DNA of 64,000 nucleotides from Amphiura filiformis (taxonomy: Eukaryota; Echinodermata; Ophiuroidea; Amphilepidida; Amphiuridae), in the NCBI RefSeq assembly GCF_039555335.1, contig NC_092628.1, positions 78,432,713 to 78,496,712 on the forward strand, in the 5' to 3' direction. The notes under the pieces were generated by a model that saw only the letters and a program-made list of their open reading frames with translations, did not search any database and was not told where the DNA came from. The position numbers and the translations under genes were made by a program. Each line of letters starts with the position of its first letter. Within the stretch, counting starts at the first letter, position 1. Shown here piece after piece: positions 2,519-41,177 of the stretch.

Positions 2519-5482
2519 GGTTTGTATGCGTATTTAAAAGTGTAAAAACAAACTTCGTGTTTTTTGTGCATAAGTGAAAGACAACGTGCATGAATGAGTG
2601 CTGTCCGAAGGCTAGAATCCAGAGCACAAGATACCCAACTTTAAAACTGAAATCAAGGTGTTGATTGCAATTTTCTATTCATCGGACTTGGTGTCAAAAG
2701 TGCATACGATTTTTACTATTATGTGTCATGTTTTAATTTAGAATAATGCTATTTGGTTGGGCCATCAAAGATCACAGCTTATACCATAGTCCGTAGTATG
2801 TAGACTACTTCACGTTCAGCTGCTTTTACCGTATCCAAACTCCTTGTTTCGTTCGTAAGCCGAGCAAGTTATGAACTACAACACGCTAGTTATTCTTTTC
2901 AGTAATCAAATATTTTTAAGGTCAACACCACCCTACCATAAATACAGTCACGGTTTTTGTAACTGTGCGCGATCTTTAAGCTGGAATGACTTAATATTCT
3001 AAAAAAAAGCAAAAGAAAAAGAAGATCAAGTTTTTGAAATAAATACAAAGTAGCAGTTTGGTCCTGTGGGCTTATTCTTTGATAAAATACAATACCGATA
3101 TATTTGATCGAGCAATATAGTTTACAATTGTTTCTGAATTGGTTTTGATGGAAACAAACCAAGCCGAACGAGTTGGAAGTCTGCGTATGAGCAGAGAGTC
3201 TCACGTTTTCTCCCAGAGGATATGAAGTCGAGTTGGATTGTGTACGATCGTTGAGCTACAGTTTTGGAAATATAACACTACCTCTTGAGCGAGTTCTCCA
3301 AACACAGTGCCTGTAGCGCACTGTCATACGCAGCCCTAATTATGCACTTGTAACGTGTATTGTATAAATAATTCTGTCAATACTTTCAATTTAGTGAAAT
3401 CTTATCTAGTCTGGTTTAGGAGAAGCCATTTTTGGTTAATCGTTGAAAGTGTATCTCATCACGTACGTAAAGACCAAATCGGTGTTGTTCTCGCCCTAAA
3501 TGCATTCATTTATGCGTCGATAGGACATAGAGACTCTTTGCTAGTCTTTGTGTATACATGACTGATGATGGCCCGTGCACCTAAATTATTTTCATAACAC
3601 ACTCAAGATGATATTAACTTACCAATTTGATAAAGAGGCAAAGGCAATGCAAATAAATTTTATACTTTTAAGTTGTATTCATTTTTATAAGCTATTTAAT
3701 ACAATTGCCGCTAAAGCATAACCCTTATGAACGTCAATCTATAGCTAAGTGCCCTTCATTGCAAATACAAATGAATGCAACCATTAGAATACGGTATAAT
3801 TTGTATTTTTAAAGGTTTTGCCTTATTTGCAATGGTAATCAATGCCGTTTATCAATACTAAAGTCGATAGATAGCACTAAATAGACAATAATTGCAAATG
3901 CGGTTTATGTCGTTAATGCTAATACTTGTTTATATAGTTGTCTTCACCGAACTTCACTGCATAAGTTTTTAATGTGATCAATGTTTAAAAGACTATTATC
4001 TCTGCTCTGTAAATGCAGAGAACTTGAGATCAAATTTATTCACAAGTATTATTTTCATAGCTAGCATAATTGTGTATACTACTAATATTGTTTATAATTT
4101 TATTTTCTAATTAACATTTTCTCGTCAAAAGCATGATATTCTAATTCCTACCTACTGAAACATAAATTGTTCTTTAACGGCGTAAAATGCTTTCAAAATT
4201 CACCTTCCTGCAAAAAAAGTATTGGATCATTAAACGCTCCTATGTCAGTATACTCTAAGCTGATCAAGCGACAAATTGTCGATGGCAAGAGGATGTATAA
4301 AATCGTCACTATTATCATGAATACAATGTACCTTTTTGCATGTACAAGAATTTATAATTACCACTACCAGTTTATCTCCTATGATGCTATCACAAAATGA
4401 TGCGATCACAAAATGTGTGAAAGTTTGATTTTTTTATAAAGCTATAAAATAAAAGTTAGATTCGGTTTAAGGAAATATTAAACACGTTATATACTTTAAA
4501 AGAAACCAATTATTTGATTAACTTCATACTATGTATATCAAAACGCCCACGTCTAATTCTTTACGATCAACATATTTTGGGTCGGGGTTGTATGTCGGTA
4601 GGGAATAGTTTTCTATAATGTATCTCTTAATCAAGCTTGATACTCGCATTTAGCATGATCAACAGATTTACGCCGTGGGCAAAAAACATTATATTAGTGC
4701 GTATTGTGTATCGGGTTTTACAATACGGTAACAAATAGGTTAATACAGCCGACAACACGCTTTGGGCGATGTAATATGGATTTTATATAAGTCTTCATCA
4801 AAGAATAAGCCTAGCCTTCTCGATGCTACACAGAATAAACACAAACTTGGGAGATTCTCATCCAAATCACAACTTCAACTTGAGGGGGAGGATTCAAATG
4901 TTCTTGCTCAAGCGTTAACAGCGATTTCACCATTTTTGTTTTATAACTCTGAAATTTGAGTTAATCGAGCAATATTGTAAAGAATATTAAAAGGCAGCAG
5001 ACTTTATTTTATATTAAACTTCGATGGTAAATTTATTACATGGTTTCAATATCAATATCATAACAAAAACACGCCAATTTAAGTTGCAATCTTGTCTTGT
5101 CTAGGGTAACATGTATATGTAAGAGATAATTATTGCCAGAAACTGCGGCATTATCTTTTATTAAACATTCCGGCTCTATTTGACTGAGATGTATATACTT
5201 GAGGTAGTAATAAAGAATATGATGACTATGATATACAGTAAAAAGTATTATTTCATGAGATGCATCCCGTGTGTCCATTGAAAGCCTGCATTTTGACTTT
5301 GTTATCCCATTTCAAGTGATATGCATAACATTGTGCGCTGCATGACACATTCGCCTATTGCAAAATTCACGACACGCATCGCTGGTATCGAGAACGTAAT
5401 TTTAAACCAAAGCTTCACAAACAAACCCGTATGATAACGGTGTTAGTAGGATCATTAATGTTTTAATAGAGCTTGTAATGGG
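2519..5482. other. Spacer between the two satellite A blocks, no gene seen
   Basis: AT-rich sequence with scattered short ORFs (the longest about 100 codons) that look random in composition. No domain, exon or RNA gene is recognised. Satellite A is absent from it, so the two blocks are separate arrays. Confidence 0.55.
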
Positions 5483-7785
5483 GTTCGTCAATGGCTAAAA
5501 CAGAGGTACATGGACTGGTTATTAGGTGATCAATGACAATTAGATAAATCGTGGGAAGATAGCTTGTACACTTACGCATTTGATCAAGTTGGGTTTATCA
5601 ATATACAGCAGGGCTAGATAGCTTGTATGCAGTTTATAAATGGGTACTTTCAGGGGTAGATAGCTTGTACGTATAGTATATCAAGGAATAACACATGTAG
5701 CGCTAGCGTAGACGTAGTTCATCAACTATCCATCAGGGGTAGATAGCTTGTACTTAATTTATTAATGATACATCAGGGTAGGTACCATGGACGTAGTTTA
5801 TCAATGACTACATCAGGTGTATATAGCTTGCACGTAGTTTATCAATGACTACATCAGGGTATGTATAGTGTGGACGTAGTTTATCAATGACTACATCAGA
5901 GGTAGATAGCTTGCACGTAATTTATTAATGATACATCAGGGTAGGTGTAGCGTGGACGTAGTTTATCAATGACTACGTCAGGGGTAGATACCGTAGCTTG
6001 TACTTAGTTTATAAATGAATACATCAATGTAGGTATAGCATGGACGTAGTTTATCAATAACTACATCAGGGGTAGATAGCTTACAGGGATATACAGCTTG
6101 CACATAGTTTATTAACGACACATCAGGGTAGGTACTATGGACGTAGTTTATCAATAACTACATCAGGGGTAGATAACTTGCACGTAGTTTATCAATGACT
6201 ACCTCAGGGGTAGATAGCTTGCACGTAGTTTATCAATGACTACATCAGGGGTAGATAGCTTGCACGTAGTTTATCAATGACTACATCATGGGGTAGATAG
6301 TTTGCACATAGATAGCTTACAGGGATATACAGCTTGCATAGTGTATCAATGACTACATCAGGGGTAGATAACTTGCATGTAGTTTATCAATGACTACATC
6401 AGGGGTAGATAACTTGCACGTAGTTTATCAATGACTACATCAGAGGTAGACATCTTGCACGTAGTTGATCAATTATTACATCAGAGGTAAATAGCTTGCA
6501 CGCAGTTTATATGGGTAGGTAGCTTGAGCGAATAATTTTATCAATTACTACATCAGGGGTAGATATCGTCCACGTAGTTTATCAATTACTATATCAGGGG
6601 TAGATAGCTTACACGTATGTTTTAATTATTACATCAGGGGTAGATAGCTTGCACATAATTTATCAATTACTGCATCAGAGGTAGATATCTTGCACGTAGT
6701 TTATCAATTACTATACCAGGGGTAGGTATCTTGCACGTAGTTTATCAATTACTACATCATGGGTAGATATATTGCACGTAGTGTATCAATTACTATATCA
6801 GGGGTAGGTATCTTGCACGTAGTTTATCAATACTACATCAGGGGTAGCTAGCTTGCACGTAGTTTATCAATGACTACATCAAAGGTAGATATTTTACACT
6901 TACTTTATCAATTACTAGATCAGGGGTAGATATCTTGCACGTAGTTTATCAATTACTATATCAGGGGTAGGTATCTTGCACGTAGTTTATCAATTACTAC
7001 ATCAGGGGTAGATATCTTGCACGTAGTTTAACAATTACTATATCAGGGGTAGGTATCTTGCACGTAGTTTATCAATGACTACATCATGGGTAGATAGCTT
7101 GCACGTAGTTTATCAATGACTACATCAGAGGTAGATATTTTACACTTTATCAATTACTAGATCAGGGGTATACAGCTTGCTCGTAGTTTATCAATTACTA
7201 AAGCAGGGGTAGATAGCTTGCACGTAGTTTATCAATGACTAAAGCAGGGGTAGATATTTTACATTTAGTTTATCAATTACTATATCAGGTGTTTATATCT
7301 TGCACGTAGTTTATCAATGACTACATCAGGGGTAGATATCTTGCACGTAGTTTATCAATGACTACATCAGGGGTAGATAGCTTGCACGTAGTTTATCAAT
7401 GACTACATCAGAGGTAGATATTTTACACTTTATCAATTACTACATCAGGGGTAGATAGCTTGCACGTAGTTTATCAATGACTACATCAGAGGTAGATATT
7501 TTACTAGATCAGGCGTAGATAGCTTGCTCGTAGTTTATCAATTACTACATCATGGGTAGATAGCTTGCACGCAGTTGATCAATTACTACATCAGAGGTAG
7601 ATAGATGTCTTGCACGTAATATACCAATGACTATACATCAAGGGTAGATATCTTGCACATGCACGTAGTTTATCATCATGGGTATCAAGGGTAGACAGGT
7701 TCTACGTAGTTTATCAATACGTACATCAGATCATGGGTAGGAAGTTGTTTATCAAAGGCTATATCGGGGCTACATAGCTCGGACG
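5483..7785. repeat. ~41-bp satellite A, block 2
   Basis: About 55 copies of the same 40-42 bp unit as block 1, in the same orientation, with the core cacgtagtttatcaatgac. Variant units recur in groups: a unit reading gatattttacact recurs near 6.89, 7.13, 7.25 and 7.42 kb. This indicates higher-order duplication of several units at a time. Some units are truncated or interrupted, as at 6068-6105 and 6300-6340. Non-coding. Confidence 0.93.
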
Positions 7786-9651
7786 TCACGATATCATGAT
7801 AATGTTACCCAACACTAAATAAAATCTTCAAATTGAATTTAATCTTAAACGATATTTCTGTAATTGAAAGAACAATTGTAGATATTTATGGCTAGAATTA
7901 GATTTCTCAGGTTTGTACACGTAATTAAATCAGTGAAATTCAACACAAATGTGCCTCCAGCTTATCCCGGATAGACAAAGATTATTGTTATTATCAAATG
8001 TCTTACATACGATTCCAAATTCAACAGTCACAACTGACAAGTACTTTTATCCATTCATGTCCCTTTAATTTGAAACCCTTATTTTTCAAGCAGAAGTATT
8101 ATTTACCAGACTGAAAAAGTCAGTCATTGCCTTTTTTTCTCATCATTATCATCTCCTTGTTGCCAGTCACTTGAAGGCGGGCGGGGAGCGGTAGGTAAAA
8201 CGCCTAAATAGCAGTATCTGCATCCGGGAATCTGTTGCTCAACAGGATAAGCGTGTTGCTCCTCACGGATGAAGCGAAATAAGTGCACAGTTAACATAGT
8301 CCCCGGAGCTTCTAAAACTTAGATCATCAGCGGAAAATTATCAGCACTGCCCTCGTGGAAAGCATAGTCATTTGGCGTACTTACTCTACTAGCTGCTCTA
8401 TTTACGAGCTATCAACCCCTGGAGACAGTGCTTGAGAGCGAGAATATATGCATAAAATCACTGAATATCGCAGATACGGGAAATCTCCATAAAGCGCCTC
8501 CAAACCGACGACTCATTGGGGTCTCATTTTCAGCAAGATTTGAAAACGACTGCTTATTAATCAGACATAGAAGCGAGCTGGTTGGTAATTTCATATGAGT
8601 TCTCCCCCATGTTAATGTCTCATTAAACTGACCGGGCTATGTCTTTAACATCTTTCCGCGATCGAGCTTACGCATCTTGGGATTGTTTTGTAAAAAGTGC
8701 TTGAGGCGTAATGCGTCTTAACTACAAGTCTTAACTGAACATAAACCTCGAAAAACTTCATGAAAACTCGTCTCACGGGAGAGACCGTAATGGGTTCAAT
8801 CAGCTATGGGCCTCTTCAGTTATGGTATTTCAATGGTTTCTATTACCAAAACCTATCAACTGCAGTCTATTACGTATGATTTTATTACACTATATGTACC
8901 GCACTTAATAGGGCAAAGGCGTCTATATGCCCATTTCATAATTGCTCAATATTTAATGGAATTGTTACCAAGGGTTAAACAGGTACAATTCGAGAAAAAT
9001 GAAAATTAATGGAAAATTCTTGTGTTAATTTGATGTCATCCTGATGAGCGATATCATGAGAGTGCTTTTGACGAGAATTTCCTGCGCACATGGGAGAAGA
9101 TTGTTCCACGGTAAATGAAATGCAATTTAACTTACGCACTTCTCAATTTACTCCTATAATAATGAGACCGCGATGATTTAAATAGCAACTTAGACATCGT
9201 AAAAAGCCAATAAATACCATAGTGTTAATATATCGATGACATTTGTGGAAGATAAAACTTTCTAATTATGGGGTTCTTTTTTGTATGAGGTAACATGTAA
9301 TTAAAGAATTGGATTACACACACACTGAGGTATTCACTATATATTGACGATAATTATGATCAACGGATTTATGATATATTTATTAATAGACCCATATACC
9401 ACCATTTACCATCTACAATACTTTTCAGTTTTAAGATCAATATTGAGTTTTGAAATGAATATAGCAAATTATATTCACAAACTAATTTCTATATATACGT
9501 GTCATCGATGTTGTTTTCATCAGTCGCGTAACAATGGTCGTTTCGAGATGGCAAAAGTCCGGTCTGTGATTGGAGAGAATAGGAATCCAAGAAGATCTGA
9601 CTTAACACTAATTAATAGTTATCTATTCCTCATTCCAATCATCCGAAAAAT
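7786..9651. other. Intergenic DNA, nothing recognised
   Basis: No supported exon, RNA gene or repeat. Short ORFs at 8412-8594 (-) and 8806-9009 (+) have no recognisable family. Confidence 0.5.
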
Positions 9652-11249: not shown

Positions 11250-11807
11250 CCCTCCATTCCAGAAAAATACAGCACTAATTTTGGGGGATTACAAAAATTA
11301 TTATCCTGTTTCACCAAATGAAACCTAGCTAAATCCCAATCCTTTAGCTAGTTCTAATTGGTAATAAAAGTCAAATTTGAATATTTTTGCAATTTGAGGA
11401 AAAAATTTACATCTTTTCTTACAATTGTAGTTACAAAATTGTAAGACTTGGCACAAGTCTAAGCATTCAAAATCTTGAGTAAGAGTTAGCTCATAATTTT
11501 AATATTATATGTTATTTTGGGTAATTGGTTATGAAAAAGATTGGAATGTTTTCCAAAAATTAGAATGCATAACTTGAAATTAGTCTTTGTTCAAGTCTTT
11601 GGGCTTGATTGTCGTAGAATACGAAAAAGGTAGAAAAGGCCCCTAAAATGCATGTTTTTGGCCCTTATTTCCAAAAATTGACCAATATATTAAATGTTGA
11701 CTTTCATTGCCAGTTAGAACTAACTGAAGGATTAGGATTTAGCTATGATTCACTTGGCAAAACAGGATATTTTTTAATTAAAAAAATGAGTATTCTGGAA
11801 TGGGGAG
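11250..11807. mobile_element. Fold-back (long inverted repeat) element
   Basis: The left arm (11250 to about 11403) is the inverted, diverged copy of the right arm (about 11655-11807). Shared blocks in order from the ends are cattccag, tatcctgtttcaccaa (gccaa on the other arm), tagctaaatccc(t)aatcct and tagttctaa. The loop is about 250 bp. No coding capacity is visible; the 60-codon ORF at 11648-11830 is inside the right arm. Probably a non-autonomous DNA transposon. Confidence 0.78.
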
Positions 11808-13889
11808 TATATCACATGCAGAGAGGTTAAAGAAACTCGCATGAAATCACAGTCAAAGAGCATCTAGCCATTATATAGTTGATAAAATACCTTTGTCTTC
11901 CAATCAAACTTTCAAACTTTTTAATTTAAGATTTTCACAGCAGATGAAGTTTGTTTGACATAACCGAACATGTCACGGTAGTAATTAGCCGTCGGTATAT
12001 TTGTATTTTTTTAAATGGCCCCTCGCCTCGGTCACGGAAAGTCGGCTTCATCACTTATCACACCAGGTTGTTTTACCAAAATAATGGTTTGTAGAATTGA
12101 TGGCACTGCTGAATTCACATCATTACTGAGATGCCTTATTTCGGACAAAAACGATGCATTATGTATGTGTTACCAAACCAACACCAATTAAAACGCACCA
12201 TGCATCAAATACCTTTATACTAAATCATCTGTGTTACTCAATTCGGTAAATAGCGACAACGAAACAATGAGGCTTATATCATTTGCTTTAAATAATCAGA
12301 AACAGTTGAAACACTTTCAGTTTCTTGAAAGTAAAATCTTGCATCTCGCATCTCAATTACAAGCTAAACTTAATTTGCCTCGGGTAAAACCTGATTTCCA
12401 TGAATATTTGAAAAAATCTTTCAACTGAAAAAAATGCGTTTAACACATCGTGCTTTTCGTGATTCAAAACTTCCATATTGGGATTACGCTTCAACAAAAG
12501 CGAAGCATAAGCGGCTATTAGGAAATTTGAACATGTTGCTGAACAAAGTCGTACCCGCCGATCACTCCATCTTAACTTTCTGCTTGCATTGACGGGTCGA
12601 GTGAAGAGAGATGACATATCAAACATTTTGTAAAGACAATGCACATAATATCATATATCTGAACATCTATGTTTGTCATGTTATATATCCAAATAAGTAC
12701 TAACATCCCTACACTCAAGGGGTTATATAATTTGATTATATTTCATCTTGCAGAGATTCTGAGAACACGCTACTAATATACCATGGCATACCGGCGTGAT
12801 TTATTTAACCACGGTCTCTTCAGATCCTTAATTCTTATACGTGGAGACGTGAAACTGTAATTGATGAGGGTAATTTCCCCCTTACAGAATTCACTCACTC
12901 GTGCGAGTGAGTGCGCTACAGACAAATCGTCTATTTGCAAAAATCTGCGGCATTTTGTGGGTGGCATGGCTAGTTTAGCGCCAAATTAAAGTAGTGAACT
13001 TGATGGATGACCCGGCGATTGTCCCACTGCGGGATCTTCTTATGCTATTCTAGAAACTAACACTAAGCCCTCATGTAGATAAGACAAAAATTTGAAATTC
13101 GTGGCGGCATCAAGACGCGATTCCTCACATCAAAGCTGATAGCATGAGCTTTTTCTCCTGCTAGTTATGATAATAAGTTAAATTTAACCTCCTTTTTCAA
13201 TATATTATGTCATGCATTAATGTTGATTTCGAATCGAAAATATAAAGTCTATAGTACGAAATGGTATTCAGCTGTTGCTTGGGAATGCCTTATACATAGG
13301 GGTTGCAAATCTTCATCGGAATAGCCCATTAGTCTCGCTACCATGACAAGCAAGTTGTTATTATCTGGTGCTAGCGACACTTGGCGATCATTAGAAAGCT
13401 GTGAAGTGTGAATTTGCCTTCGTCGTTACCCATCATCTTACATCACTAGTTGGCATGCAATAACAACGCTTAATTTGATCATTAATTTATAAGACCACTT
13501 GATGAGCGTCTTTTTTACAGGATATTACCGAGCTATTTCTATCCGTCAAGATTGTCAAAGATTCACTAATTTGTATCAAGTGTGTCTTCATAGCTTGTTT
13601 ATGACCATCCAACGAGAGGTAATTAAGATGCTTTAGCTGTAGTAACCATGTAGTGTTATCTAAAACAAAACAATCTCATATCAGTTTTCGTCAGCGGCAG
13701 GCAAACGAGCAGGGAGAGAAATGGAGGAAAGAGTAAAAGGTAGTGCACAGTATGACGCATTATTTTATTGAGATATTAAAATGGCCATTCAAAATTATTT
13801 CACATCAGACTTTAATACAAGAATAGAAAAACGTTACTCGCATTCCATATACATTTTTAAATGAGACTCGTATATTAATATGATATTAG
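11808..13889. other. Intergenic DNA, nothing recognised
   Basis: Only short ORFs (such as 12231-12428 + and 12357-12644 -) without family resemblance. A 20-bp palindrome around 12893-12912 (actcactcg/cgagtgagt) is the only small structure noted. Confidence 0.5.
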
Positions 13890-14022
13890 CATAAAAGCTA
13901 TCTTCAGTAGACAGCATTTGCGTATAAGTAGTATAAAAGCTATCATCAGTAGACAACATTTGCGTTTAAGTAGTATAAAAGCTATAAGTAGTATAAGTAG
14001 TATAAAAGCTATCTTCATTCAG
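13890..14022 (-). repeat. 42-bp satellite B, detached three-unit fragment
   Basis: About three units of the gctatcttcagtagacagc family, including a marked pair (catcag variant followed by gcgtttaag) that also occurs inside the main array at about 14470-14510. It ends in partial units near 14015, then about 130 bp of unrelated DNA before the main array. Confidence 0.85.
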
Positions 14023-14157
14023 TGTTGATAAAGATAACAGAGTGGTTATCGAAACGTACACAGTAAGTGCAATTTATTGGATCGGAAATAAGAACCTTTT
14101 GATTGACTTTATTCTACCGATCCTGATGAATTTGTTCAACCATATCTTCAGCAGCCA

Positions 14158-15350
14158 GCATTAAGTATAAAAGCTATCTTCAGTAGACAGCATTTGCGTA
14201 TAAGTAGTATAAAAGCTATCTTCAGTAGACAATATGTGCGTATAAGCAGTATAAAAGCTATCTTCAGTAGACAGCATTTGCATATAAGCAGTATAAAAGC
14301 TATCTTCAGTAGATAGCATTTGCATATAAGTAATATGAAAGCTATCTTCAATGGACAGCATTTGCGTATAAGCAGTACAAAGCTATCTTCAGTAGACAGC
14401 ATTTGCATATAAGTAATATAAAAGCTATCTTCAGTAGACAGCATTTGCGTATAAGTAGTGTAAAAGCTATCATCAGTAGACAGCATTTGCGTTTAAGTAG
14501 TATAAAAGCTATCTTCAGTAGACAACATGTGCGTATAAGCAGTATAAAAGCTATCTTCAGTAGACAGCATTTGCATATAAGCAGTATAAAAGCTATCTTC
14601 AGTAGATAGCATTTGCATATAAGTAATATAAAAGCTATCTTCAATGGACAGCATTTGCGTATAAGCAGTATAAAAGCTATCTTCAGTAGACAGCATTTGC
14701 ATACAAGTAATATAAAAGTATCTTCAGTAGACAGCATTTGCGTATATGTAGTATAAAAGCTATCTTCAGTAGATAGCATTTGCATATAAGTAATACAAAA
14801 GCTATCTTCAATGGACAGCATTTGCGTATAAGCACTATAAAAGCTATCTTCAGTAGACAGCATTTGCATATGAGTAATATAAAAGCTATCTTCAGTAGAC
14901 AGCATTTGTGTATATATAAGTAGTATAAAAGCTATCTTCAGTAGACATTATTTGCATCTAAGCATTATAAAAGCTATCTTCAGTAGATAGCATTTTCATA
15001 TAAGTAATATAAAAGCTATTTCCAATAGACAGCATTTGCGTTTTAGTATAAAAGCTATCTTCAGTAGACAGCATTTGCATATAAGTAATATAAAAGCTAT
15101 CTTCAGTAGACAGCATTTGCGTATAAGTAGTATAAATGCTATCTTCAGTAGACAGCATTTTATGTACAAATATAATATAGATATCTTCATTAAACATCAT
15201 TTTTATACATAATAAGTATAAACTATCTTCAGTTGTAAACATTTTGTGCATCAATATGCCTAGAATAATACAGCGACAAGTCATCTTAAACAATAAGCAT
15301 TTTGCGTATAGAATTTGAGTTATCTCCATTACAATATAGACAACATTTTA
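14158..15350 (-). repeat. 42-bp satellite B, main array
   Basis: About 25 tandem units. Read on the minus strand each unit encodes an open 14-residue repeat (MLSTEDSFYTAYTQ-like), because 42 is a multiple of three and the unit lacks stops in that frame. Marked variants reveal higher-order structure: units carrying caatggacagc lie at about 14351, 14644 and 14811, spaced 293 and 167 bp (seven and four units). Units decay toward 15.35 kb. One-base indels break the frame repeatedly, so the long ORFs here are a by-product of the repeat period. Confidence 0.93.
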
Positions 15351-16071
15351 AGTAAATATTATCCAAACTCAAGCTACATCTTCAGAAAACATCATCGTAG
15401 ACATATGAGATAAATTACGCGAATGGCTACCACAGACGTCAAATTAACATTCTTTTTAACCATTCGGAAACTACAACAAACATTAATATAATTAAATCAA
15501 ACATAACACCCAATATGGTTCAAATTTAATAATTCACTTTGTGTATCTTAGGGTCTCATACGACAGCAATATGAAAAAACATATTATACCCAATGAAATA
15601 GTTTCTATTACATTATGACTTGTTAAATCACCGATTGGAAACATAAAAGAGCTGTCGTAAAATCTATCAAACCAAATAAAATGGTTTCAAATGACTATAA
15701 ATGAAGTCAAAGCGACAGGAAAACGACTATTTACTGCCGAAAACAGCGATTAAGATTTAGCAGAGGGAAATTTAGATTTATATATTGCGTGTAGACATCC
15801 TATAAATGACATCAAATGTAACGTGTGGAAATCTTAATGTCTCTTAATGCATGTCGCATGCTGCTCTATGAACAGCAAATGTGAAAATTCAGAAATAGCC
15901 TTTTAGTAACATTTGTGAATCTTCTTTGTCTTAAATGCAGTTGCATGGCGACTCAAAACTTATAAAAAAAACAGGGACATTGGCGTAACTTGAAACTAGA
16001 AGTTGACAGTTTGTTAGTTGGTTTGTAGGTTAGTGTGCCGGTGGTTGGTTTGGATCAACTTGGGTTATTCC
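15351..16071. other. Spacer between satellite B arrays, nothing recognised
   Basis: AT-rich unique-looking DNA. The first bases may contain very decayed satellite units, such as the words acatcttcagaaaacatc near 15385. Confidence 0.5.
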
Positions 16072-16336
16072 TTCATGTATAAGCAGTATATAATCTTCAG
16101 TAGACAGCATTTGCGCATAATCAGTATAAAAGCTATCTTCAGTAGACAGCATGTGCATATAAGTAGTAATATAAGCAGTATAAAAGCTACCGTCAGTAAA
16201 CAGTATTTCCATATAAGCAGTATAAAAGCTATCTTCAGTAGACAGCATTTGCATATAAGCAATATAAAAGCTATCTTCAGTAGACAGCATTTGCATATGA
16301 GCAATATAAAAGCTATCTTCAGTAGACAGCATTAGC
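16072..16336 (-). repeat. 42-bp satellite B, second array
   Basis: About six units with the same orientation and consensus as the main array. One unit is expanded or mutated around 16160-16215 (accgtcagtaaacagtatt). The right edge at 16333 is abrupt. Confidence 0.9.
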
Positions 16337-19300
16337 TTACACGAAATAATTACATGAAAGATCGACCTAAACTTGGTCCATTGTTGCTGCTTTGTGTTGT
16401 TTTCTCTTTTCTTTATTCAATCTTAAGACTCAGAAATAATCATTATTTTGGATTATCGATCAGAAACTAATGTACTAAAGAATTGTTCAACACTTTTAAA
16501 CAAAGATGCGCAGATTTACACTTTGCAACTTTGTGAACACCTTTTTGTTTATGATTGATGTATTATGGCAACTTTTTTTTCAAACAAAGAAACATTGATA
16601 TTAATATTTGCTTCACGTGTAATCATAAATGATTAGGTGAACATCGATAAATCTGATAACAAAAAATGTTTTTACATCTACAAAGAAAAAATACATTTAT
16701 GCCTTTGTAAAGTTCAGAGCTGCCTTCGCTTATATGTTGTAAATGATGTATGCGAACAATTAACATTCGACATGCGGTCCGGAAAACGTTTCTCTTATCA
16801 ATTTACATCTCTATCATACCACCAATGTTATATTTTCATGTTTCATGTTGTTACTTGAATGCTGACATATTAGGAGCGATAAATTTTGATAAATTACACA
16901 AATCGATATTTTAATGATCGTGATAAGGATTGACATTAAAAGGATGTACACGATTGCGATGATGATTTTATTAAGTTAGCATGGCAAAAACAATACGTGA
17001 CCTTATCCATTTTACAAATTGACTGTTTTATTGTCATTATGGTTGGTTATGCTTATATGGATCAAAAGTATATTGTTGTGCAATTATGTAGTAATTTCAA
17101 TTATAACATGGTTTAATCTTCCTTCGATTAGTCATGTAAATATTAAGTGCACTTTTTTGTCTTTCTACAAATGTACAAATGATTATCTGATTATATACAC
17201 TTTTTATTTCATCTCCGTGATTCAGATTTCATTACTCACTCAATTCATTATGCAAAATTGCCTTGCAAGCATTTCCCTTCCCACGCGATCATAAACTCCT
17301 AGTGTACTCTTTAAGCAATATAAAACGTTTACTGCTTTCTTAAGAGGAAAGAAAGTTTGACATAATTTAGGAATATATTACACGAAGTATGACCCAGAAC
17401 TGGATAGAAAATTGTCTCTTAGAATAACAGGTTAGCTAATGTAGCAGGCATCCGTTGTTCATTTAGCTGATGACTTGTATTTCACCTATAGACATAGCAA
17501 ACTCTTGCGGGCCCATCATATCATAGCTTTTAAATCAACAATAAACGAGTAGGCTACGGTAAACACTTATATAAGCGCCTTAAGCTTAACATGCTTAACG
17601 CGACAATATATGGACAACAAGCCTATGTTGCAACTCCGCAAGCTATAAGTTCTTCATAGAATATGAATAGCAAACGCTTTATGGTAAGATATTAACAACG
17701 AATAGGTTGTAAAATCAATTTTGACGTAACTACATTTAGAGAAATGTAATTCACTTAGTGTTCGGGCCAATATTGTAGTCTGAGATGGCGGATAATGGTT
17801 GCGATATGACCGGGTAATCGTTCATCATTTGTCACTTATTATTTGCATCATACAAACCCGTTTATTGTATAACATAAACACGCCACACTAATGACAATAA
17901 TGTTCCTTAATTTTCATATCAGAACAAAATCAGTCTGCCTTTTACCGTCTTCAAGTCAAACTTATTTCAACGAATTTAGGTGATACGGGTAATTTGAGTA
18001 GTTTTTCGTTGCAAATGAATTCATGTCCCAATTATTTCAATTGCGGCAATCATGTCATAATGGTCTATACAGAATCATCATCTTCCTATCGTCGATCTTA
18101 TAATGATTTTCTGTTCAGATCATCGTTTAATAATGTACATATCATCTATACCGCGTTTGAAAATTTGAGTTATGGATAGGGGCACTTTCAATGGATCGAT
18201 CTTGAGGCGATTTTTGGGACTAAGATTTTGGAAAGATATGAGAGGGTATTTAATGTGTCCCATGATGATTCTCGCGAAGCCAGCACGGGTGTCCATATCA
18301 TCTATCTAAAATATTTGCATCATATTCGAGATCACATTGCATGCTATTCAAAAATGACCTGAAGTTGCCGCAATTATATTGAGCTGCCTACTAAGCACGA
18401 TTTTACGGGTTTGGAGTAGCGGACGCCGTCTTTTGAGAGGACGGGAGGAGTGATTTCTAATGCGGGATTTGCCGCGGGCTTGCAACGTTAAGTACGCGCT
18501 AGTTTCAGCGTCTTGTGAGGAGTAAAAATTGAATGAAAGCTTTTTGAACGTTCTAATTATGAATTGGGTCAGGTGAGGAGCAAGATTTAGGACGATTCCG
18601 TCAGGATGCTTTAAATTAAAACATCTTCTGATGAGCACTTTTTACGCTTATACCAATCCCGTTATAAAACAGCCTGTTTTAAGCATCTTTTTCAAATATC
18701 AGCACATAAGGGTTTAGAATGAAGAATCACCATCTCATGAATACACGAGTGATTGAGGGAAAGAAACGGCTTCAATCTCTTGCCTAACCCCCCACGGCAG
18801 TCGCCGTTATGCTAGGACCCGATACCAGCTCTCTAACACTCCAACATGCTGCAGTCCCTCCCACATGGACAACGAACACGCGACTAAATTACTGCTGATC
18901 ATCATAGAACAAAGACACTAAAAGTTGCAACACGCGAACAAGCCTTAAAGAACAAAAAGATATCGTTATACAAAATATGTACTTCAATTCCCGGTACACT
19001 TGTCCCAAGAATATCTACCATGATAATAATTGCGTACGGCATTTTTGTACTTAGGTCCCAAAGAAAAACGCCATCTTAGACTAGATCTATTACACATTGG
19101 TCCATTCTCAAGTATTTTGTATTAATTTGTACACGAGATGCACGCGTTAACCTCAGGGAATGTCCTTATTAATTTACTCGATGAAAACTGAGAACTTATT
19201 GTGCTGTGTTTGGGCCTTCTTTTAGATTATGAATTTAATTAAATGATTTCCTTCGAACTTTTAATGTCTTTTTATTGTGGGTAGAATTGTAGTTGATAGT

Positions 19301-19403
19301 TGTTAATGTTTCGTGATTTTTGTCCGTATTTCAAATTGCGATGCCACAGTCACCATCCATAAGCTTTCAAATGTTCGGCAGTTTAATATCACCACTATAT
19401 TTT
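16337..19403. other. Intergenic DNA between satellites B and C, no gene seen
   Basis: About 3 kb with no supported exon. The ORF at 18348-18638 (-), 96 codons, is the least AT-rich but resembles no family I can name and lacks convincing splice context. No RNA gene was found. Confidence 0.45.
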
Positions 19404-19602
19404 TTGCTGTCTTCAGAAGAAAATGCTTATTTTGTTATTGTCGATTGAAGAAAGCCCAATGTTATTATCTTCAGGAGATAGCGCTAACACTTTCATGTTA
19501 TCTTCAGAATATAACGAGAATGATAAAAGTTAGATACTTTCATGTTATCTTCAGAAGATAGCACTTATACTTTCATGTTATCTTCAGAAGATAGCATTTA
19601 CA
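19404..19602 (+). repeat. Decayed left flank of satellite C
   Basis: Irregularly spaced and mutated copies of the core (cttcagaagaaaatgc, cttcaggagatagcgc, cttcagaatataacg) grade into the regular 33-bp array. Gradual loss of identity toward an array edge is the pattern expected when unequal exchange homogenises the interior only. Confidence 0.8.
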
Positions 19603-21670
19603 CCTTTTATGTTATCTTCAGAAGATAGCATTTATACTTTCATGCTATCTTCAGAAGATAGCATTTATACTTTCATGTTACCTTCAGAAGATAGCATTTA
19701 TACTTTCATGTTATCTTCAGAAGATAACATTTATACTTTCATGTTATCTTCAGAAGATAGCATTTATACTTTCATGTTATCTTCAGAAGATAGCATTTAT
19801 ACTTTCATGTTATCTTCAGAAGATAGCATTTATATTTTCATGTTATCTTCAGAATACAGCGTTTATACTTTCATGTTATCTTCAGAAGATAGCATTTATA
19901 CTTTCATGTTATCTTCAGAAGATAGCATTTATACTTTCATGTTATCTTCAGAATACAGCATTTATACTTTCATGTTATCTTCAGAAGACAGCATTTATAC
20001 TTTCATGTTATCTTCAGAAGACAGCATTTATACTTTCATGTTATCTTCAGAAGACAGCATTTATACTTTCATGTTATCTTCAGAAGACAGCATTTATACT
20101 TTCATGTTATCTTCAGAAGACAGCGTTTATACTTTCATGTTATCTTCAGAAGACAGCATTTATACTTTCATGTTATCTTCAGAAGATAGCATTTATACTT
20201 TCATGTTATCTTCAGAAGATAGCATTTATACTTTCATGTTATCTTCAGAAGATAACATTTATACTTTCATGTTATCTTCAGAAGATAGCATTTATACTTT
20301 CATGTTATCTTCAGAAGATAGCATTTATACTTTCATGTTATCTTCAGAAGATAGCATTTATACTTTCATGTTATCTTCAGAAGATAACATTTATACTTTC
20401 ATGTTATCTTCAGAAGATAGCATTTATACTTTCATGTTATCTTCAGAAGATAGCATTTACACTTTCATGTTATCTTCAGAAGATAGCATTATACTTTCAT
20501 GTTATCTTCAGAAGATAACATTTATACTTTCATGTTATCTTCAGAAGATAACATTTATACTTTCATGTTATCTTCAGAAGATAACATTTATACTTTCATG
20601 TTATCTTCAGAAGATAGCATTTATACTTTCATGTTATCTTCAGAAGATAGCATTTAAACATGTTATCTTCAGAAGATAGCATTTATACTTTCATGTTATC
20701 TTTAGAAGACAGCATTTATACTTTCATGTTATCTTCAGAAGACAGCGTTTATACTTTCATGTTATCTTCAGAAGATAGCATTTATACTTTCATGTTATCT
20801 TCAGATGATAGCATTTACACTTTCATGTTATCTTCAGAAGATAGCATTTACACTTTCATGTTATCTTCAGAAGATAACATTATACTTTCATGTTATCTTC
20901 AGAAGATAACATTATACTTTCGTGTTATCTTCAGAAGATAGCATTTATACTTTCATGTTATCTTCAGAAGACAGCGTTTATACTTTCATGTTATCTTCAG
21001 AAGATAACATTATACTTTCATGTTATCTTCAGAAGATAACATTATACTTTCGTGTTATCTTCAGAAGATAACATTATACTTTCGTGTTATCTTCAGAAGA
21101 TAGCATTTATACTTTCATGTTATCTTCAGAAGACAGCATTTATACTTTCATGTTATCTTCAGAAGATAGCATTTATACTTTCATGTTATCTTCAGAAGAT
21201 AGCATTTATACGTTCATGTTATCTTCAGAAGATAGCATTTATACTTTCATGTTATCTTCAGATGATAGCATTTACACTTTCATGTTATCTTCAGAAGATA
21301 GCATTCAGTTTCATGTTATCTTCAGAAGATAACATTATACTTTCATGTTATCTTCAGAAGATAACATTATACTTTCGTGTTATCTTCAGAAGATAACATT
21401 ATACTTTCGTGTTATCTTCAGAAGATAGCATTTATACTTTCATGTTATCTTCAGAAGACAGCATTTATACTTTCATGTTATCTTCAGAAGATAGCATTTA
21501 TACTTTCATGTTATCTTCAGAAGATAGCATTTATACTTTCATGTTATCTTCAGAAGATAGCATTTATACTTTCATGTTATCTTCAGAAGATAGCATTTAT
21601 ACTTTCATGTTATCTTCAGAAGATAACATTTATACTTTCATGTTATCTTCAGAAGATAACGTTATAATTA
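19603..21670 (+). repeat. 33-bp satellite C, main array
   Basis: More than 60 head-to-tail units of 33 bp (some 32 bp) containing atgttatcttcagaag and atttatactttc. Each unit holds a palindrome: gttatcttc, one base, then gaagataac or gaagatagc. Read on the plus strand the unit is an open 11-residue repeat (MLSSEDSIYTF), which gives a 356-codon ORF at 19609-20679. That frame is broken by 32-bp units from 20491 onward and differences between units are mostly amino-acid changing, so it is treated as non-coding. A block with two 32-bp units and a cgtg variant recurs near 20.88, 21.01 and 21.33 kb, showing segmental duplication within the array. Confidence 0.95.
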
Positions 21671-22310
21671 TCTGGCTTTAGACGACGACTTATTTTCCTG
21701 CTGTCTTTAGAAGATAACACCTTCCCTTGTTATATTCCAAAAAAAACACCACTATTTGTGGAGATCATTTTCTTGTTACCTAAAGAAGGTAACACTTATT
21801 TTCTTGCTGTCTTCTGAAGATAGTAATGTATTTCTTGTAATTTTCGGGAAATATCACTTTAGTCTTGCCGTCAGTAGATGATACTCTCTATTTTTTGGGA
21901 GACAGTCCTTTTTGGTTTTGGTCTAGAAACTTCCTCGTTGTCTTCAGAATGGCAAATCAACACTTTCATGGTATCTTCAGAAGATAGCATTAATTTCAGT
22001 GTCAGCTTATCTTAAGGAGACACTCTCTTGTTATCTTCAGAAGATCCCATACTTTTCTGCCGCCTTCAGAAGATAGCAGCTATTTTCTTCTTGTATACCG
22101 GTAGTGAAGATAGTTTCTAGTTATATTCTAAAAAATAGTACTTATTTTTGTCGACTTCAGAAGATAGCACTTACTTTTCTTGTTCCTTCCGTTATTAACG
22201 CGTATTTTCTCAATAGTTCGGAATACGGTACGCCTTTTAAAATTTCTATAAGTATCTCAGAAGATGGTACTCATTTTGTCTTCGATGGAAATCACTTTTC
22301 TATATAGTTT
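21671..22310 (+). repeat. Decayed right flank of satellite C
   Basis: Scattered mutated cores (tctttagaagataacac, cttctgaagatag, atcttcagaagatagc near 21972, tatcttcagaagatccc near 22032, ccttcagaagatagcagc near 22064) at irregular spacing of 40-90 bp. Satellite identity falls with distance from the array. Confidence 0.75.
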
Positions 22311-22683: not shown

Positions 22684-23040
22684 TGTAGAAAGCATTCATT
22701 TTCATGCTGTTTTATGTACTTTATGTAGAGAGATTATGTTGCTATCTTCAGAAGATAGTAAAGACAGATAGCATTCACTTTCATGCTGATTTATGTAGAG
22801 AGATCATTTTGCTATCTTCAGAAGATAGTAAAGACAGATAGCATTCATTTTCATGCTGCTTTATGTAAAGAGATTATTTTGCTATCTTCAGAAGATAGTA
22901 CAGAAAGATAGCATTCATTTTCATCCTGCTTTATGTAGAGAGACTGTTTTTGCTATCTTCAGAAGATAGTACAGAAAGATAGCATTCATTTTCATGCTGC
23001 TTTATGTAGAGAGATTATTTTGCTATCTTCAGAAGATACA
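22684..23040 (+). repeat. 70-bp tandem repeat carrying the satellite C core
   Basis: Four full units of 70-71 bp (gctatcttcagaagatag starts at 22741, 22811, 22881, 22952, and a fifth truncated unit at 23022). Each consists of the palindromic core followed by gatagcattcattttcatg and tttatgtagagagat. A partial unit precedes them. This looks like an independent amplification of one diverged copy of the satellite C core with a new spacer. Confidence 0.9.
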
Positions 23041-25706: not shown

Positions 25707-27812
25707 TGTTGAGTTCACCAGTAATTTCTTTTGTGTATTTTGAATATGAATCGTTCATGTCTTTTTTTTTGGGGGGGGGGCTTTAGAAGTGGGGTTGAAT
25801 ATTTCCTTTTATCGAGAGGTCAATGACACAAAGACGTAACTGTATATTTTTATTTTTTTGCGAAAATGAGATTTTGATATCAAAATTTTCAGAAACAAAG
25901 ACTACATAAGTTTTTGAGGACCATTATCAAACTAATTTTTCTCTGAATGGCCAAAATGGAGTTATGTGTACCAATAAATAATACAGGTCTAAAAAAAGGC
26001 TGAAATTTGACAAAATTTTTCAAATTGCAATATCAGAAGTGGCTTGTTCTTTGTTCTCAACTTTAAAAAAAAATCTTCCTCGGTCATCATATCTTTAACC
26101 GATATATATGCTTCAAAAGCATTTACAAGAGACTACAGCTATATAGCTACTAATCGCTCGATGGCTAGAGTACATGCATGTAACTCATATTTTTGTAAAC
26201 AGAACTTTAATTCAAACAAACAAACAAACAAACAAACAAACAAACAAATGCACATGAAAACAAACATATACAAACACCATTAAGATGCTAATCTTGTTTA
26301 TGTTCATGATGATGGTTAACTGATAGATAACCATCATCAATTAAACACGCATTGGCGCGAGTGTGGTACCAACGCATAGGTTGTAGACGCTATGACCGAA
26401 AAACTTGCAGATTTAGTTACATCTAAAAATGTGTAAGACATCAATGGTAACAAGGAGTGTCGACGGATGGAAGCATTGCTGCATGACAAAATGCTTGAGG
26501 GATGATAGGTATAGCTATAGAGAAGTCTGTCTACAGTTAGCAGTGGCAACACAAATAAACATAGTAGTAGCAACGAGGAGGTAATGAGTCCAATCACTCA
26601 ACGTAAAGACACAAATGCTCTATGATCGCTCACCTCCCAGTAAAGTTGATGTCTTGATCATCAGTTGACCATAGTTCCAGGAAACTTGATGGATATCCCT
26701 AGCCTTATACCTACCACACACCACTGACCATCTACAACATATAACAGAAGACCCTTCGGCTTACTTGTAAGATGCTCTAATTAAACTTCTGAAACAGCAG
26801 AGCACATCTAGTCAAACAAAATTCACTAAAGCATGTACAAATGATTGATTATGGGCTCTTTTGTTTTCTAGTGTGATTCACTACCAAACAGAAGAACAGT
26901 TTGGAGTTCTTTAGGAAGTACTTAAATTCATGAGTTATTCAAAAGTAAACCAAGTTTTTTTTTCTTCATATTTTGACACCTCTGTTAAATGTCACTTTCA
27001 AGACTTCTAACATCTTTAGACATTACTTACATGAAGCCTAATGACCAATAAACTATCCCATACATCAACTAAAAGTTATGCCATTAATTCTACAAGTTAT
27101 AGCAAAATGATCTTGTTGAAGATAATCAGAAACGATAATTGGAGTTAATAGTGGTAATAATATGTCACTAACTGCTTGTTTTGGTCGTGACTACTCCACT
27201 AATTGGAGCGGGAAAATCGTTGAGTGGGTGGCGCGAAAACATCGGACCACTCCGATGGGTTAAATGTTTACTACAAGTTCAACTTACTAACCCTTTTAAC
27301 TCCGAATATTTGGGTACAATTTGATCACAAAGTTCCTGTAAATTTCGCTTTTAATTCAAGTTTAAGTAATTGAAATCAGTTGAACAAATTCAATACAGTA
27401 AGGCGTTTAGTCAAATAAAAGCGCTTCCCGTATGGCAGCGTTTCAGATCATTCTTAGAAAAAGAGCCAACCAGTTTTTATAGTGTGCTATAAACATGAAT
27501 TGAAAAGTAGTACGAAGAGGATTAAAATGTTTATTATAGAGGACCTACAAGTTCAAGTTTAAGGTGGTAAATACATGGTATGATCGCTCTCATGACCACA
27601 TAAGAAGGGAGATTGACACATTTGCGTGCAAAGGATTTTAGAGTAGTAACCGTAGCTCGGCCTACGAATGTGTATACCGGTACTTATCAAAAGAAATCAA
27701 AGAAGATCCTTTCCTATATAAGAATAAGATATTCAGTTCAAAATATTGCTGCCATTCTCCTGGGTGCCCAAACTTACGACGCAACCATTACTAGCCAACA
27801 GTTCCGCTAATT
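25707..27812. other. Intergenic DNA with small simple repeats
   Basis: Contains a G run at 25769-25780, the CAAA microsatellite, and a perfect 11-bp-arm hairpin (gatgatggtta / taaccatcatc) at 26309-26339. No exon was recognised; ORFs at 26044-26283, 26337-26597 and 27613-27810 have no family resemblance. Confidence 0.45.
26213..26248. repeat. (CAAA)9 microsatellite
   Basis: Nine exact tandem CAAA units. Confidence 0.97.
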
Positions 27813-35267: not shown

Positions 35268-38200
35268 TCACAAATGTACACGAACAACATCTTCTTTCCT
35301 ATAGCTACGACTACAACTTGCACAAAATCTAGTGTCCTGCTGATTGAGGGCAGCAGACTTATCTGTTGGTGTCACAAGGCAATCTCTACAGATGAGATGT
35401 GAGCATGGAAGACGATACAGAGATACAGCTGGCCGAGTCTCAACATTGAGGGCAGTAGACTTCATCTCCACATGACAGGCAGCACAGGACGGTGGTGGAG
35501 TACTTGAGGTTGAGGATGTGTGATTTAAACCTGTTGATTGAAAATTAAATAAAAGACCAAAGAAACTTTGGTTTAATGTTTTCTGATAAATTATTTCATA
35601 TAGCATTACCACAATGTGGTAAATTGAGACATGATAAAACAAACAAAACACATAATATTTCAAATAAACGAACATTTGAGAGTGGAGGCTTAGAGAGTTA
35701 ATATTTCATTTGTTGTGTCTTTTTTCTACTTGGTAATGGTATTTTGTTGTTGTGGTTGTTGTAATCTTGACTAGTCTTTTTAACAATGAACTAAATCTTT
35801 CTTCATTTTTGCACTTAATTGTTTATATCCAGTGCATATCTTATTTGCAGTGCAAAACTCTTAATGAAATATGGAGAAAAGCTTCAGCAAACTGTGGTCC
35901 AAGGATATTATGTAATTAAGGCCCCTTATGTTACTTAAATGCTCAAAACCTTGTGTTTATGCTTCCCTGAGGCGGTGAAGTTAATGTCTTGTCCAAAACC
36001 ACTATTAAACTGGACCACTCTACCAATTTGGTTGGACTATGTGCAACAGTGTGCTTCATTTAACAGTGTAATACACAGTCATACATACTGAGTGTCAAGC
36101 AAGTTTTGTTAACAACTTACAAGGTACTGCCTAGTACTGTTTCTGCATATGAAATCAAAGTGTATACTCACAGAGATGATGAGAATCTATTCTCATCTTC
36201 TCTGATACTCACCACTGGCATTACTAGCTACTGACAGAGCGTTTTTTACATGACTTCACTTCTGTCACTGATCGGCAGAGGGATTACCACTATCTAATCG
36301 ATGTCACTATCAGTTAGCATCCTGGACAACCGATTCTTTTGTTTGGCAAGGCTCACTCAGTCATTTAATGAGGCAATACAAACGATCGAATTTGGTGTTG
36401 AAATGAGCTAAATTTTTAGTTACACCTTTTCGATGTAAAATTAATTTTCTCGGCCAAATGAAAAGCAATCATTTTCATTTTTTCAGTAAATGTCAGGAAA
36501 AATTGTAGTGCTTGACACTGTATTTTTTTTTCAAATTCTAGTGTTAAACTTAGGCGTGAAATTTAGTCATTTAGTGTAAGATATTCGATTTTGATAGGCT
36601 TAAACTCTGCCCGCGAGCCTTTTTTTGATCAACCTTTTAGCTTTTAAAAGTAAGATAGTTCGCTAATGAAGGATTTTTCCCAACTTTCTAACGCACATCA
36701 CCGTGAGCGATATATCATAGTTTTGTCAGAATTTGCGTTTTCATTTCACCATTTTTACTGCCGGCTGACCATTTTTCAAAATCAACGAGTGAAATCTAAG
36801 GCTAATACTAGCATTGTGGATCGATATCCCTGGGTTTAATAGGAATACCGGCATGGCTACAGTGTTGCTAGAACTTCAATATAGCAAAAGAAATTCCCAG
36901 GCCTATAGCGCTCCTACTGATCATGTTTAACCAGAACACTCAATTGGGGATTTGGGCTACCAAATCGCTGGTCGGGCAATTTGCTTTCAATGGAAAATTG
37001 ACCTGGATAAACAACAAAGGAAATATCGACTATTTCTGCTGGTTGCTCTTGAGATAAAAGTACTGAGTTAGACATTTTCGGAATAAAAAAAAAAAAAGGG
37101 TAAAATAAAAACGGAAATTCTAACAAAACTATAATATATAGACCCACACGATGTGCTTTACAGAGGTGGGAAATATCTTTCTTTAGCAAACTATATTAGT
37201 TTGAGACAAAAAAAAATGAATTCCGTAAAAAGCTCATGGGCTTAACTGAAGGCCTATAAAAATCAAAAATATCACACTAAAAGACACAATTTGATGCTTA
37301 ATTTTAACACCAGGATTTTAAAAAAATTGTATATCCAATCATCAAGTTTTTAACTGACATTACTGAAGAAAAAAAATATTGCTTTATATTTGACCGAGAA
37401 AATTAATTTCATAGCAAAAGGTGTATCTCTGAATTGTGCTGATTTTAACATGTATCGATCGACTTTCAGCGCGACTAAGCATTTCTAAAGAATCGGTTGT
37501 CCAGGTTGCTAACTGCTATCATGTCCCAGCGTCAAGTCGCAAGCCATTTCTAAAGGTAACTTCTATGCTCTGATGCTTGCAGCAATTGCACCCTTTTTTG
37601 ATCACTAGCAATTTTTGAATTACACGCCCAGCTGTGCCTGCTAGAATGATATGCTCTTAAGAAGCAGAGGAGTAATCTGATTTGTAACTTACCATGCAGC
37701 TAGGTGATGATAATGCCTTGGTGTACTAAAATCAATCTGATTTGGGACTTACCTTTACTACCTATTGACAAAGAATGGCAAACCCATTTTTAACTTACCA
37801 TTTGTAGCTAATGATGGAGACTGGCTTGGTGTACTGCTGTAAGATGGTAGACTTCCCAAGGCTTGATATAAAGCACTATCCAAACTGTCTGTTACAGAAT
37901 CCTCATGGGATTTGGTTATGCCTAAAATAAGGACAAGTGAGAACAAAGTGCAAGAAATCCTTCAATCTGCCACAAAATGCTAGCTTATATTTGATTGTTA
38001 CTTTCAATTTAAAATCTAATGTTACCACAGCATTATCTTTGCCCATCATTCAAACCACATTGCATGTATCATTCTACCTGAGTGCAGTGTTTTCGATTTT
38101 TCCTACATGCATAAATAGCAATATTGTGGACTTGATTTTAGTTAATTAAATTTCATTGAAATAAAATAAAAGAGACACTCGCAAGTGCAATAAATTTTCA

Positions 38201-40041: not shown

Positions 40042-40082
40042 AATAATAACTTCATTCACCTCCTTGCTCTTGTTGTGACCTA

Positions 40083-40640
40083 TTTCTGGCAATTCAAACA
40101 TCCATGTCTACTGAAATTGAGAAAACAAGGAATAACAATTAAATACGGTATAGCATATAGGCTTATATCATACATTAAATTTGAATTTTGGATCCAAGCA
40201 CAAGAAATTTGCGCCTGCATACTTCTTGCACTTGTTGTATAATGACTTTTGGCAATTCAGAATCCATGTCTACTGAAATTGAGAAAACAAGTAAATAAGA
40301 ATTAAATTAAATATATTTTATCATATATATATCAAATTTGAATTTTGGATCCATCCATGCAAGTAATTTGTGCCTACTTCTGAACTTTTAGATGAAAAAA
40401 AGGCACTTGAGCTGTCAATTTTTTTTTTTTCCTAAGGGTAAGTGCAAGCAATTCTACAGGTAACATGGCAAGTTGGTTTGTGTTTAGACCTCTAAAGTTT
40501 AAACTAATCACTGTGATGCTGATATCATATAAATTTAAATTTAGGATCAAAACTCTAGAAATTTATTCCACTTCCGAACTTTTAGAAGACAAAGGAGGAA
40601 CTTGTGTTGTCAAAAAAAAAAAAGGGTATGAGCAAGCTGT
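40083..40640 (-). repeat. Tandem triplication covering the 3' splice site of the first UBOX5 coding exon
   Basis: Copy 1 (40083-40230) and copy 2 (40252-40400) share ggcaattca, catccatgtctactgaaatt, gagaaaacaag and aatttgaattttggatcca. Copy 3 (about 40528-40640) is more decayed. On the minus strand, copies 1 and 2 both contain the acceptor TTTCAG and the first bases of the exon (TAGACATGG); copy 2 is followed by an altered exon start. The second acceptor could be used as an alternative 5' UTR site. Confidence 0.75.
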
Positions 40641-40978: not shown

Positions 40979-40992
40979 TAGTCCCAAACAAA

Positions 40993-41177
40993 AATGTTTG
41001 GTAGACTCATAACCGGTGCGATCTTACCTTTCCGATGTTGATTAAGATACTTCTTGCATCGATCCCGAGATGCGGAAAAACCAATAGTCATTTTGTCCCA
41101 CATAAATGAATAAATAACAAAAACCCCGATCCCCGGTGGACTCACCCAAAAGGTGACGTCACACCATATGATCGCCC
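40993..41177 (-). repeat. DIRS 3' inverted terminal repeat
   Basis: Its reverse complement matches 47909-48090 at roughly 90% or better: ggcgatcatatggtgtg, cgtcaccttttgggtgagtc, caccggggatcgggg, ttatttattcatttatgtgg and gatcgatgcaagaagtatc occur in both. Confidence 0.92.

Follow-up and report, generated by a model that had tools for sequence, protein, structure and literature searches.

Organization of the repeat locus

We analysed a 64,000-nucleotide stretch of DNA from the ophiuroid Amphiura filiformis (RefSeq assembly GCF_039555335.1, contig NC_092628.1, positions 78,432,713 to 78,496,712 of the forward strand), hereafter the window, with a focus on a cluster of short tandem repeats that lies between 13.9 and 23.04 kb. 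The arrays, delimited with Tandem Repeats Finder (TRF), consist of head-to-tail units of 42, 33 and 70 bp, lengths that fall within the range of minisatellites or short-unit satellites, roughly 10–100 bp (Table 1). The 33-bp array has 64.8 copies, matching at 95%. Other sequence of ~180 bp and ~850 bp breaks the 42-bp family into three blocks, and a gap of ~3.1 kb (16,334 to about 19,405) separates it from the 33-bp family. A first-pass annotation, made from the letters of the window, had described two satellite families 3–5 kb apart; both are present, with the 42-bp family split as above, and a third array of 70-bp units and a set of decayed copies also belong to the group.

The repeats share a core motif, TATCTTCAGAAGATA, for which we recovered 178 matches with at most two mismatches on both strands of the window, against a chance mean of 0.34. 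All except one of these lie within 13.9–23.04 kb, the sole outlier being a match with two mismatches at 2,468; statements on the distribution of copies refer throughout to the 64-kb window. We obtained no Rfam match at the gathering score and no tRNA, and two DNA patterns had no match in viral_contigs or genome_contigs, which are viral and prokaryote collections with little bearing on animals. Five letter strings taken from the units had no match in published full text, a search whose scope excludes supplementary files and most subscription journals.

Table 1. Components of the repeat family, in window coordinates (the minus strand of the 42-bp family is the probable one)
Feature	Position	Strand	Basis
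42-bp array, first block	13,887–13,985	− (probable; best alignment to 33-bp unit)	TRF, sequence
9-bp slippage run TAAGTAGTA, inside the spacer of the 42-bp unit	13,967–14,005	no strand	TRF
32-bp unit of the 42-bp family without the extra spacer block	14,143–14,174	−	unit list
Main 42-bp array, higher-order period of 293 bp (about seven units), last copies decayed	14,164–15,245	−	TRF, autocorrelation
42-bp array, third block	16,093–16,333	−	TRF
Decayed 33-type copies, left edge (site 19,437: five mismatches, chance level)	19,406–19,533	+	core scan, nhmmer
33-bp array, 64.8 copies, near-palindromic core	19,534–21,658	+	TRF, core scan
Scattered decayed 33-type copies, right edge (21,729 and, outside this interval, 22,675: five mismatches, chance level)	21,700–22,174	+	core scan, blastn, nhmmer
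70-bp array, read as diverged dimer of the 33-type unit, in the orientation of the 33-bp array	22,719–23,038	+	TRF, nhmmer, shuffles

Relatedness of the 42-bp and 33-bp units

Aligned locally and cyclically, the 33-bp and 42-bp consensus units match best in inverted orientation, with 25 of 30 bp identical and a score of 35, and the direct alignment is nearly as good (19 of 21 bp, score 32). None of 300 dinucleotide-preserving shuffles reached either score, the null maximum in either orientation being 23. The first-pass annotation had reported such a shared alignment of ~30 bp and had made the relationship depend on its surpassing that of shuffled units; with a score of 35 against that null maximum, this part of its account stands.

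Removal of the 9 bp GTATAAGTA from the 42-bp unit leaves 33 bp, whose ungapped identity to the 33-bp unit is 24 of 33 positions inverted and 22 of 33 direct; 5000 shuffles averaged 15.4 and reached at most 22. Wraparound alignment, with 14,164–15,160 and the initial 660 bp of the 33-bp array as input, gave a concordant picture: the 42-bp array aligned to the 33-bp unit better than to the best of 10 shuffled units under all six scoring schemes, in a control that used 420 bp only and scores per kb. The 41-bp unit of two other arrays in the window, treated alike, was not significantly similar to the 33-bp unit (103 and 217 of 300 shuffles as good) and marginally similar at best to the 42-bp unit (51 and 11 of 300), and we claim no relation for it. 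Since the 41-bp units are not clearly related by this procedure, the result for the 33-bp and 42-bp units is not a general effect of AT-rich repeats.

Part of the similarity may extend beyond the core. In a comparison that used 588 bp of the 42-bp array, the core was left intact while the 14-bp spacer was shuffled, 200 times under each of three schemes; 3.5–5.5% of the shuffles (P 0.035–0.055) equalled or exceeded the observed best match. For the inverted spacer by itself, P ranged from 0.03 to 0.45, varying with the spacer variant and the method. Taken as evidence from sequence comparison, these results give good support to the view that the 42-bp and 33-bp arrays constitute one family with a shared ancestral unit.

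The 70-bp array and the decayed copies

A single full core is present in the 70-bp unit, whose remaining half, AAGATAGCATTCAT--TTTCATG, corresponds to the right arm and spacer of the 33-bp unit in the same orientation. This second half aligns to the 33-bp unit with a score of 30, above the null maximum of 28 (0 of 500 shuffles), and the nhmmer profile of the 33-bp unit scores 26.1 bits on the 70-bp array, on the plus strand. Judged by its letters, the 70-bp unit is a dimer of the 33-type unit that has diverged. To the left and right of the 33-bp array lie decayed copies (19,406–19,515 and 21,700–22,174); as a rule, they and the 70-bp array match the 33-bp unit better on the strand of the 33-bp array. 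The core scan on which these copies rest yielded 123 sites with at most five mismatches; 30 kb of random sequence contain 2 to 4 of these, so that, among the 13 decayed sites, the weakest three (19,437, 21,729 and 22,675) are singly at chance level. Because the decayed copies and the 70-bp array belong to the family, the locus holds more than the two halves of one array and, as read from the sequence, is one family with at least three length variants.

A near-palindromic core and the relative orientation of the arrays

The shared core, G(T/C)TATCTTC-A-GAAGATAGC, is a near-palindrome; the alignment of the 33-bp unit with its reverse complement spans 23 bp, a match equalled by 1 of 300 shuffles. 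As a consequence, similarity in the core says little about orientation, and this is also why the direct orientation aligns almost as well as the inverted one. The first-pass annotation had stated that the two arrays are oppositely oriented; the evidence on each side is as follows.

Whole-array wraparound alignment scored better in inverted orientation under all six schemes and in both reciprocal directions. Tree likelihoods, obtained on selected units within the window, were better for the inverted orientation in five of six spacer treatments, by 2.6 log units for the core alone and by 6.9–37.4 for the other four; the remaining treatment favoured the direct orientation by 9.5 log units. Comparing the best treatment of each, the inverted orientation reached −331.3 and the direct −340.2. 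These trees were single runs per setting with no bootstrap, on 27 + 18 distinct rows: the 33-bp rows were main-array units of exactly 33-bp spacing, the 42-bp rows were 20 of the 35 family sites, hand-picked as regular units (that at 14,341 being 41 bp), and the remainder were 11 of 12 decayed sites (21,729 left out) and four of the five cores of the 70-bp array. The decayed copies point the same way. Among 12 of the 13 decayed 33-type sites (19,437 left out), six carry G at core position 4, as does the inverted 42-bp unit (5 of 10 when 21,729 and 22,675 are set aside), and none of the 12 shows the direct-orientation counterpart, a C in the right arm.

The contrary reading is that both arrays belong to the same family and lie in the same orientation, the inverted match being the product of the palindromic core and a chance TTTATACT in the spacer, with no inversion ever having taken place. 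Beyond the near-equal direct alignment and the one dissenting tree treatment, several observations agree with it. The commonest 42-bp core (19 bp) differs from the 33-bp core by two mismatches in direct orientation and three in inverted, and the GACAGC right arm of the 42-bp unit also occurs, on the same strand, in 13 of the 64 units of the 33-bp array. Dimeric nhmmer profiles score higher on the plus than on the minus strand: the 33-bp profile on the 42-bp blocks gave a median of 20.8 bits (29 plus hits) versus 15.1 (33 minus hits), and the 42-bp profile on the 33-bp array 19.5 bits (59 plus hits) versus 10.6 (54 minus hits), although such doubled profiles count two cores per spacer, and thus favour the core, and units of unusual length were excluded from them. 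Moreover, the margin in favour of the inverted orientation depends on the 14-bp spacer; even with shuffled spacers, wraparound scores incline on average towards the inverted orientation, and 8–13.5% of spacer shuffles (P 0.08–0.135) gave an orientation difference that equalled or exceeded the one observed. Against a shared orientation stand the unanimous whole-array scores, the five concordant tree treatments, the core-only one included, and the distribution of states at core position 4. Given these mixed results and the weak spacer match, we consider it probable, though not established, that the 42-bp and 33-bp arrays lie in opposite orientation, and hold a common orientation to be unlikely, if still to be taken seriously.

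The first-pass annotation went further and derived the locus from an ancestral array that was inverted, each half then amplifying its own length variant. The shared ancestral unit survives from this scenario. Nothing we observed speaks positively for the inversion itself: a search beside the 42-, 33- and 70-bp arrays turned up neither breakpoint repeats nor inverted flanks, although an old inversion need not leave any. Inverted repeats of at least 20 bp in the 12–24 kb region number 638 pairs, and the 25 longest of the 638 all fall inside the 33-bp array. An inversion of an ancestral array is one possible origin of the present layout.

A further reading takes the core to be a selected element, such as a protein-binding site or hairpin, kept or acquired in otherwise separate repeats in the manner of a CENP-B-box-like motif. 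The core is indeed the most alike part of the units, and folding of the 33-bp unit as single-stranded DNA is favourable (z −3.67; dimer z −6.84). Changes in the arms are, however, not compensatory: when arms were swapped among distinct copies, P was 0.21 for the decayed copies, 0.88 for the main 33-bp array and 0.91 for the 42-bp family. The 42-bp unit has also largely lost the dyad (56% of arm pairs; fold z −0.66), and some similarity resides in the spacer as well. Selection for a hairpin was set aside for want of compensatory arm changes, and we regard a selected core in general as improbable.

The 9-bp length difference

The spacer of the 42-bp unit contains GTATAAGTA followed by GTATAAAAG, and 9 is the strongest internal period (P = 0.027 against shuffles). 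Together with the 9-bp slippage run at 13,967–14,005, a 12-bp expansion in the spacer of one unit, and the 32-bp unit at 14,143 that is free of the extra block (Table 1), this period leads us to regard the additional 9 bp as most probably a short tandem duplication inside the spacer. The first-pass annotation was correct on a difference of 9 bp, which it had taken for an insertion at the end of the 42-bp unit; the extra block lies inside the spacer instead and looks duplicated. As for the direction of change, we infer an ancestral length of 33 bp rather than 42 bp.

Evolution of the arrays

The internal structure of the arrays points to duplication of multi-unit blocks. The 42-bp array has a higher-order period of 293 bp, about seven units, with 3.4 copies at 91% matches (TRF) and an autocorrelation of 0.665 at lags of 293 and 335. 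In the 33-bp array, the order of variant units contains repeated blocks, such as QRRDJD, which was seen twice. A homogenised interior, decayed edges and block duplications, all seen here, are characteristic of minisatellites, and higher-order blocks with decayed edges are commonly left by block duplication or unequal exchange; we therefore infer unequal exchange and slippage as the motor of array change.

The long open frames in the arrays call for a separate word, because the repeats could in principle encode peptide repeats of 11 and 14 amino acids. Frames of 381 amino acids (19,534–20,679) and 199 amino acids (14,348–14,947) are open, yet stop-free units would be expected to give open frames by chance, and the 33-bp array is itself open in more than one frame. 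In the 33-bp array 12 of the 64 units, and in the main 42-bp array 4 of the 26, have lengths that break the frame, and on these grounds we reject coding repeats, a reading to which we attach almost no credence; the arrays look non-coding.

Mobile elements are another possible source; satellite arrays internal to transposons are described, in the parts of the reports drawn on here, for the oyster (PMC8268682) and for C. elegans (PMC4595182). On this view, the repeats would form the tandem interior of non-autonomous transposons (Helitron/Helentron or similar to miniature inverted-repeat transposable elements, MITEs) that landed in either orientation, and random insertion would yield opposite orientations with no local inversion. 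However, a Helitron-3′-end-like hairpin with CTRRT occurs 0 times in 12–24 kb, a weak test given its chance mean of 0.43 and one that decayed or other termini could have escaped. None of the 28 self-matches of the array-masked window (E 0.001 or better) falls in 12–24 kb, and the tested flanks of the 42-, 33- and 70-bp arrays share no terminal or flanking repeats, the one exception being a direct match of 31 bp (E 0.009) that links the left-hand flank of the 33-bp array to the right-hand flank of the 70-bp array. A transposon origin strikes us as rather unlikely, though less so than a selected core.

We favour, with fair confidence, a non-coding minisatellite family, occupying 9 kb of the window, that arose by ordinary local minisatellite evolution. 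The relatedness of the arrays, the dyad, the decayed edges and the higher-order blocks are all directly observed. The ancestral unit would have been about 33 bp long, with a near-palindromic core of 19–23 bp and an AT-rich spacer. The 42-bp variant may have come from it by the 9-bp tandem duplication in the spacer and the 70-bp variant as a diverged dimer; slippage and the duplication of multi-unit blocks would then have spread each variant and left decayed copies at the edges, with the 42-bp block probably, not certainly, turned opposite to the other arrays. No function is needed to explain the arrays, and hairpins formed by the core could have aided their instability. Weighing against this account are the weakness of the spacer match that sets the orientation (a second common spacer variant of the 42-bp unit gives a spacer-only P of 0.27 in global and 0.45 in local alignment), the modest signal for the 9-bp duplication, and the 64-kb extent of the sequence from which the confinement of the family to this locus is judged.

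A bolder extension makes the near-palindromic core a seed, whose hairpins or templated strand switches restart arrays in either orientation and with new spacers. Although we think this a long shot, neighbouring satellites of different length and opposite polarity would, on the same doubtful premise, keep arising from one core; if true, strand-switching at the core would be a simple way to explain changes of satellite polarity. Under the more conservative account of local minisatellite evolution, the locus is a small example of how one repeat unit can give rise to several "satellite families" of different length at a single site, and it carries a caution: a palindromic shared core can make two arrays look inverted without any inversion.

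Other features of the window

From its genes we take the window to be animal DNA. A U-box protein with a DUF5918 domain (Pfam) is encoded on the minus strand at 38.6–40.1 kb (38,641–40,107) and resembles UBOX5/RNF37, and downstream of it lies a RING/U-box-like frame (35,268–35,705) that falls below the curated cut-off. Plus-strand frames at ~52.3–53.9 kb, which have no Pfam match, look like exons of CFAP206. Between the two U-box/RING-like frames sits an inverted repeat pair, 36,396–36,756 and 37,093–37,450, with 73% identity over 364 columns.

The two arrays of 41-bp units, at 1,410–2,517 and 5,485–7,786 (TRF: 1.4–2.5 and 5.6–7.7 kb), share one orientation and lie about 3 kb apart. A 24-bp inverted match (1,179–1,202 versus 3,084–3,107; 92%, E 1.9e-4 among tested flanks) brackets the first of them and could be a trace of element ends. 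An inverted repeat pair of about 105 bp, at 11,302–11,405 and 11,665–11,769, has arms that are 81% identical, about 260 bp apart and MITE-like in size. At 26,213–26,248 there is a perfect (CAAA)9 microsatellite.

An island at 40,974–48,085 reaches 62% guanine plus cytosine (GC) in DNA of about 35% GC. It is bounded by inverted repeats (41,001–41,190 versus 47,896–48,085, 94%), it contains a tandem pair at 46,656–47,105 (98%), and it yields a weak phage-integrase SAM-like match (E 0.0073) that is below the curated cut-off. It looks like a decayed tyrosine-recombinase retroelement of DIRS/Ngaro type.

Comparison with known systems

Short satellite arrays are familiar from other invertebrate genomes, and the oyster Crassostrea gigas resembles A. 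filiformis in this respect: the part of the oyster report drawn on here describes short arrays scattered through the genome, many of them in Helitrons (PMC8268682). The two differ in that the oyster monomers listed there are 66 bp or longer and in that no Helitron-like end was found in 12–24 kb of the present window.

In the nematodes Meloidogyne chitwoodi and M. fallax, according to the portion of the account used here, divergent satellites share a conserved Box 1 and form higher-order repeats (PMC3694981). The A. filiformis family likewise combines a short conserved part, common to divergent satellites, with higher-order repeats. In Meloidogyne, the 17-bp box is CENP-B-box-like and some switches between monomers occur exactly on it, whereas the A. 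filiformis core is a near-palindrome.

A close parallel is offered by the C. elegans satellites Cele_Fam_1_35 and Cele_Fam_9_43 (MINISAT1), which are related, have units of 35 and 43 bp, and are described as occurring in combination, the 35-bp unit carrying two palindromic regions (PMC4595182). Satellites of this species usually grow by duplication of 100–300-base pieces (PMC4595182). Both systems include two related short-unit satellites with palindromic or near-palindromic parts, a likeness at the level of the published description. The C. elegans family occupies terminal regions of autosomes and the A. filiformis family is known from one 9-kb stretch, and inverted orientation is not discussed for the C. 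elegans pair in the sections of that work consulted here (PMC4595182). On this comparison, the A. filiformis repeat is a new sequence of a known kind.

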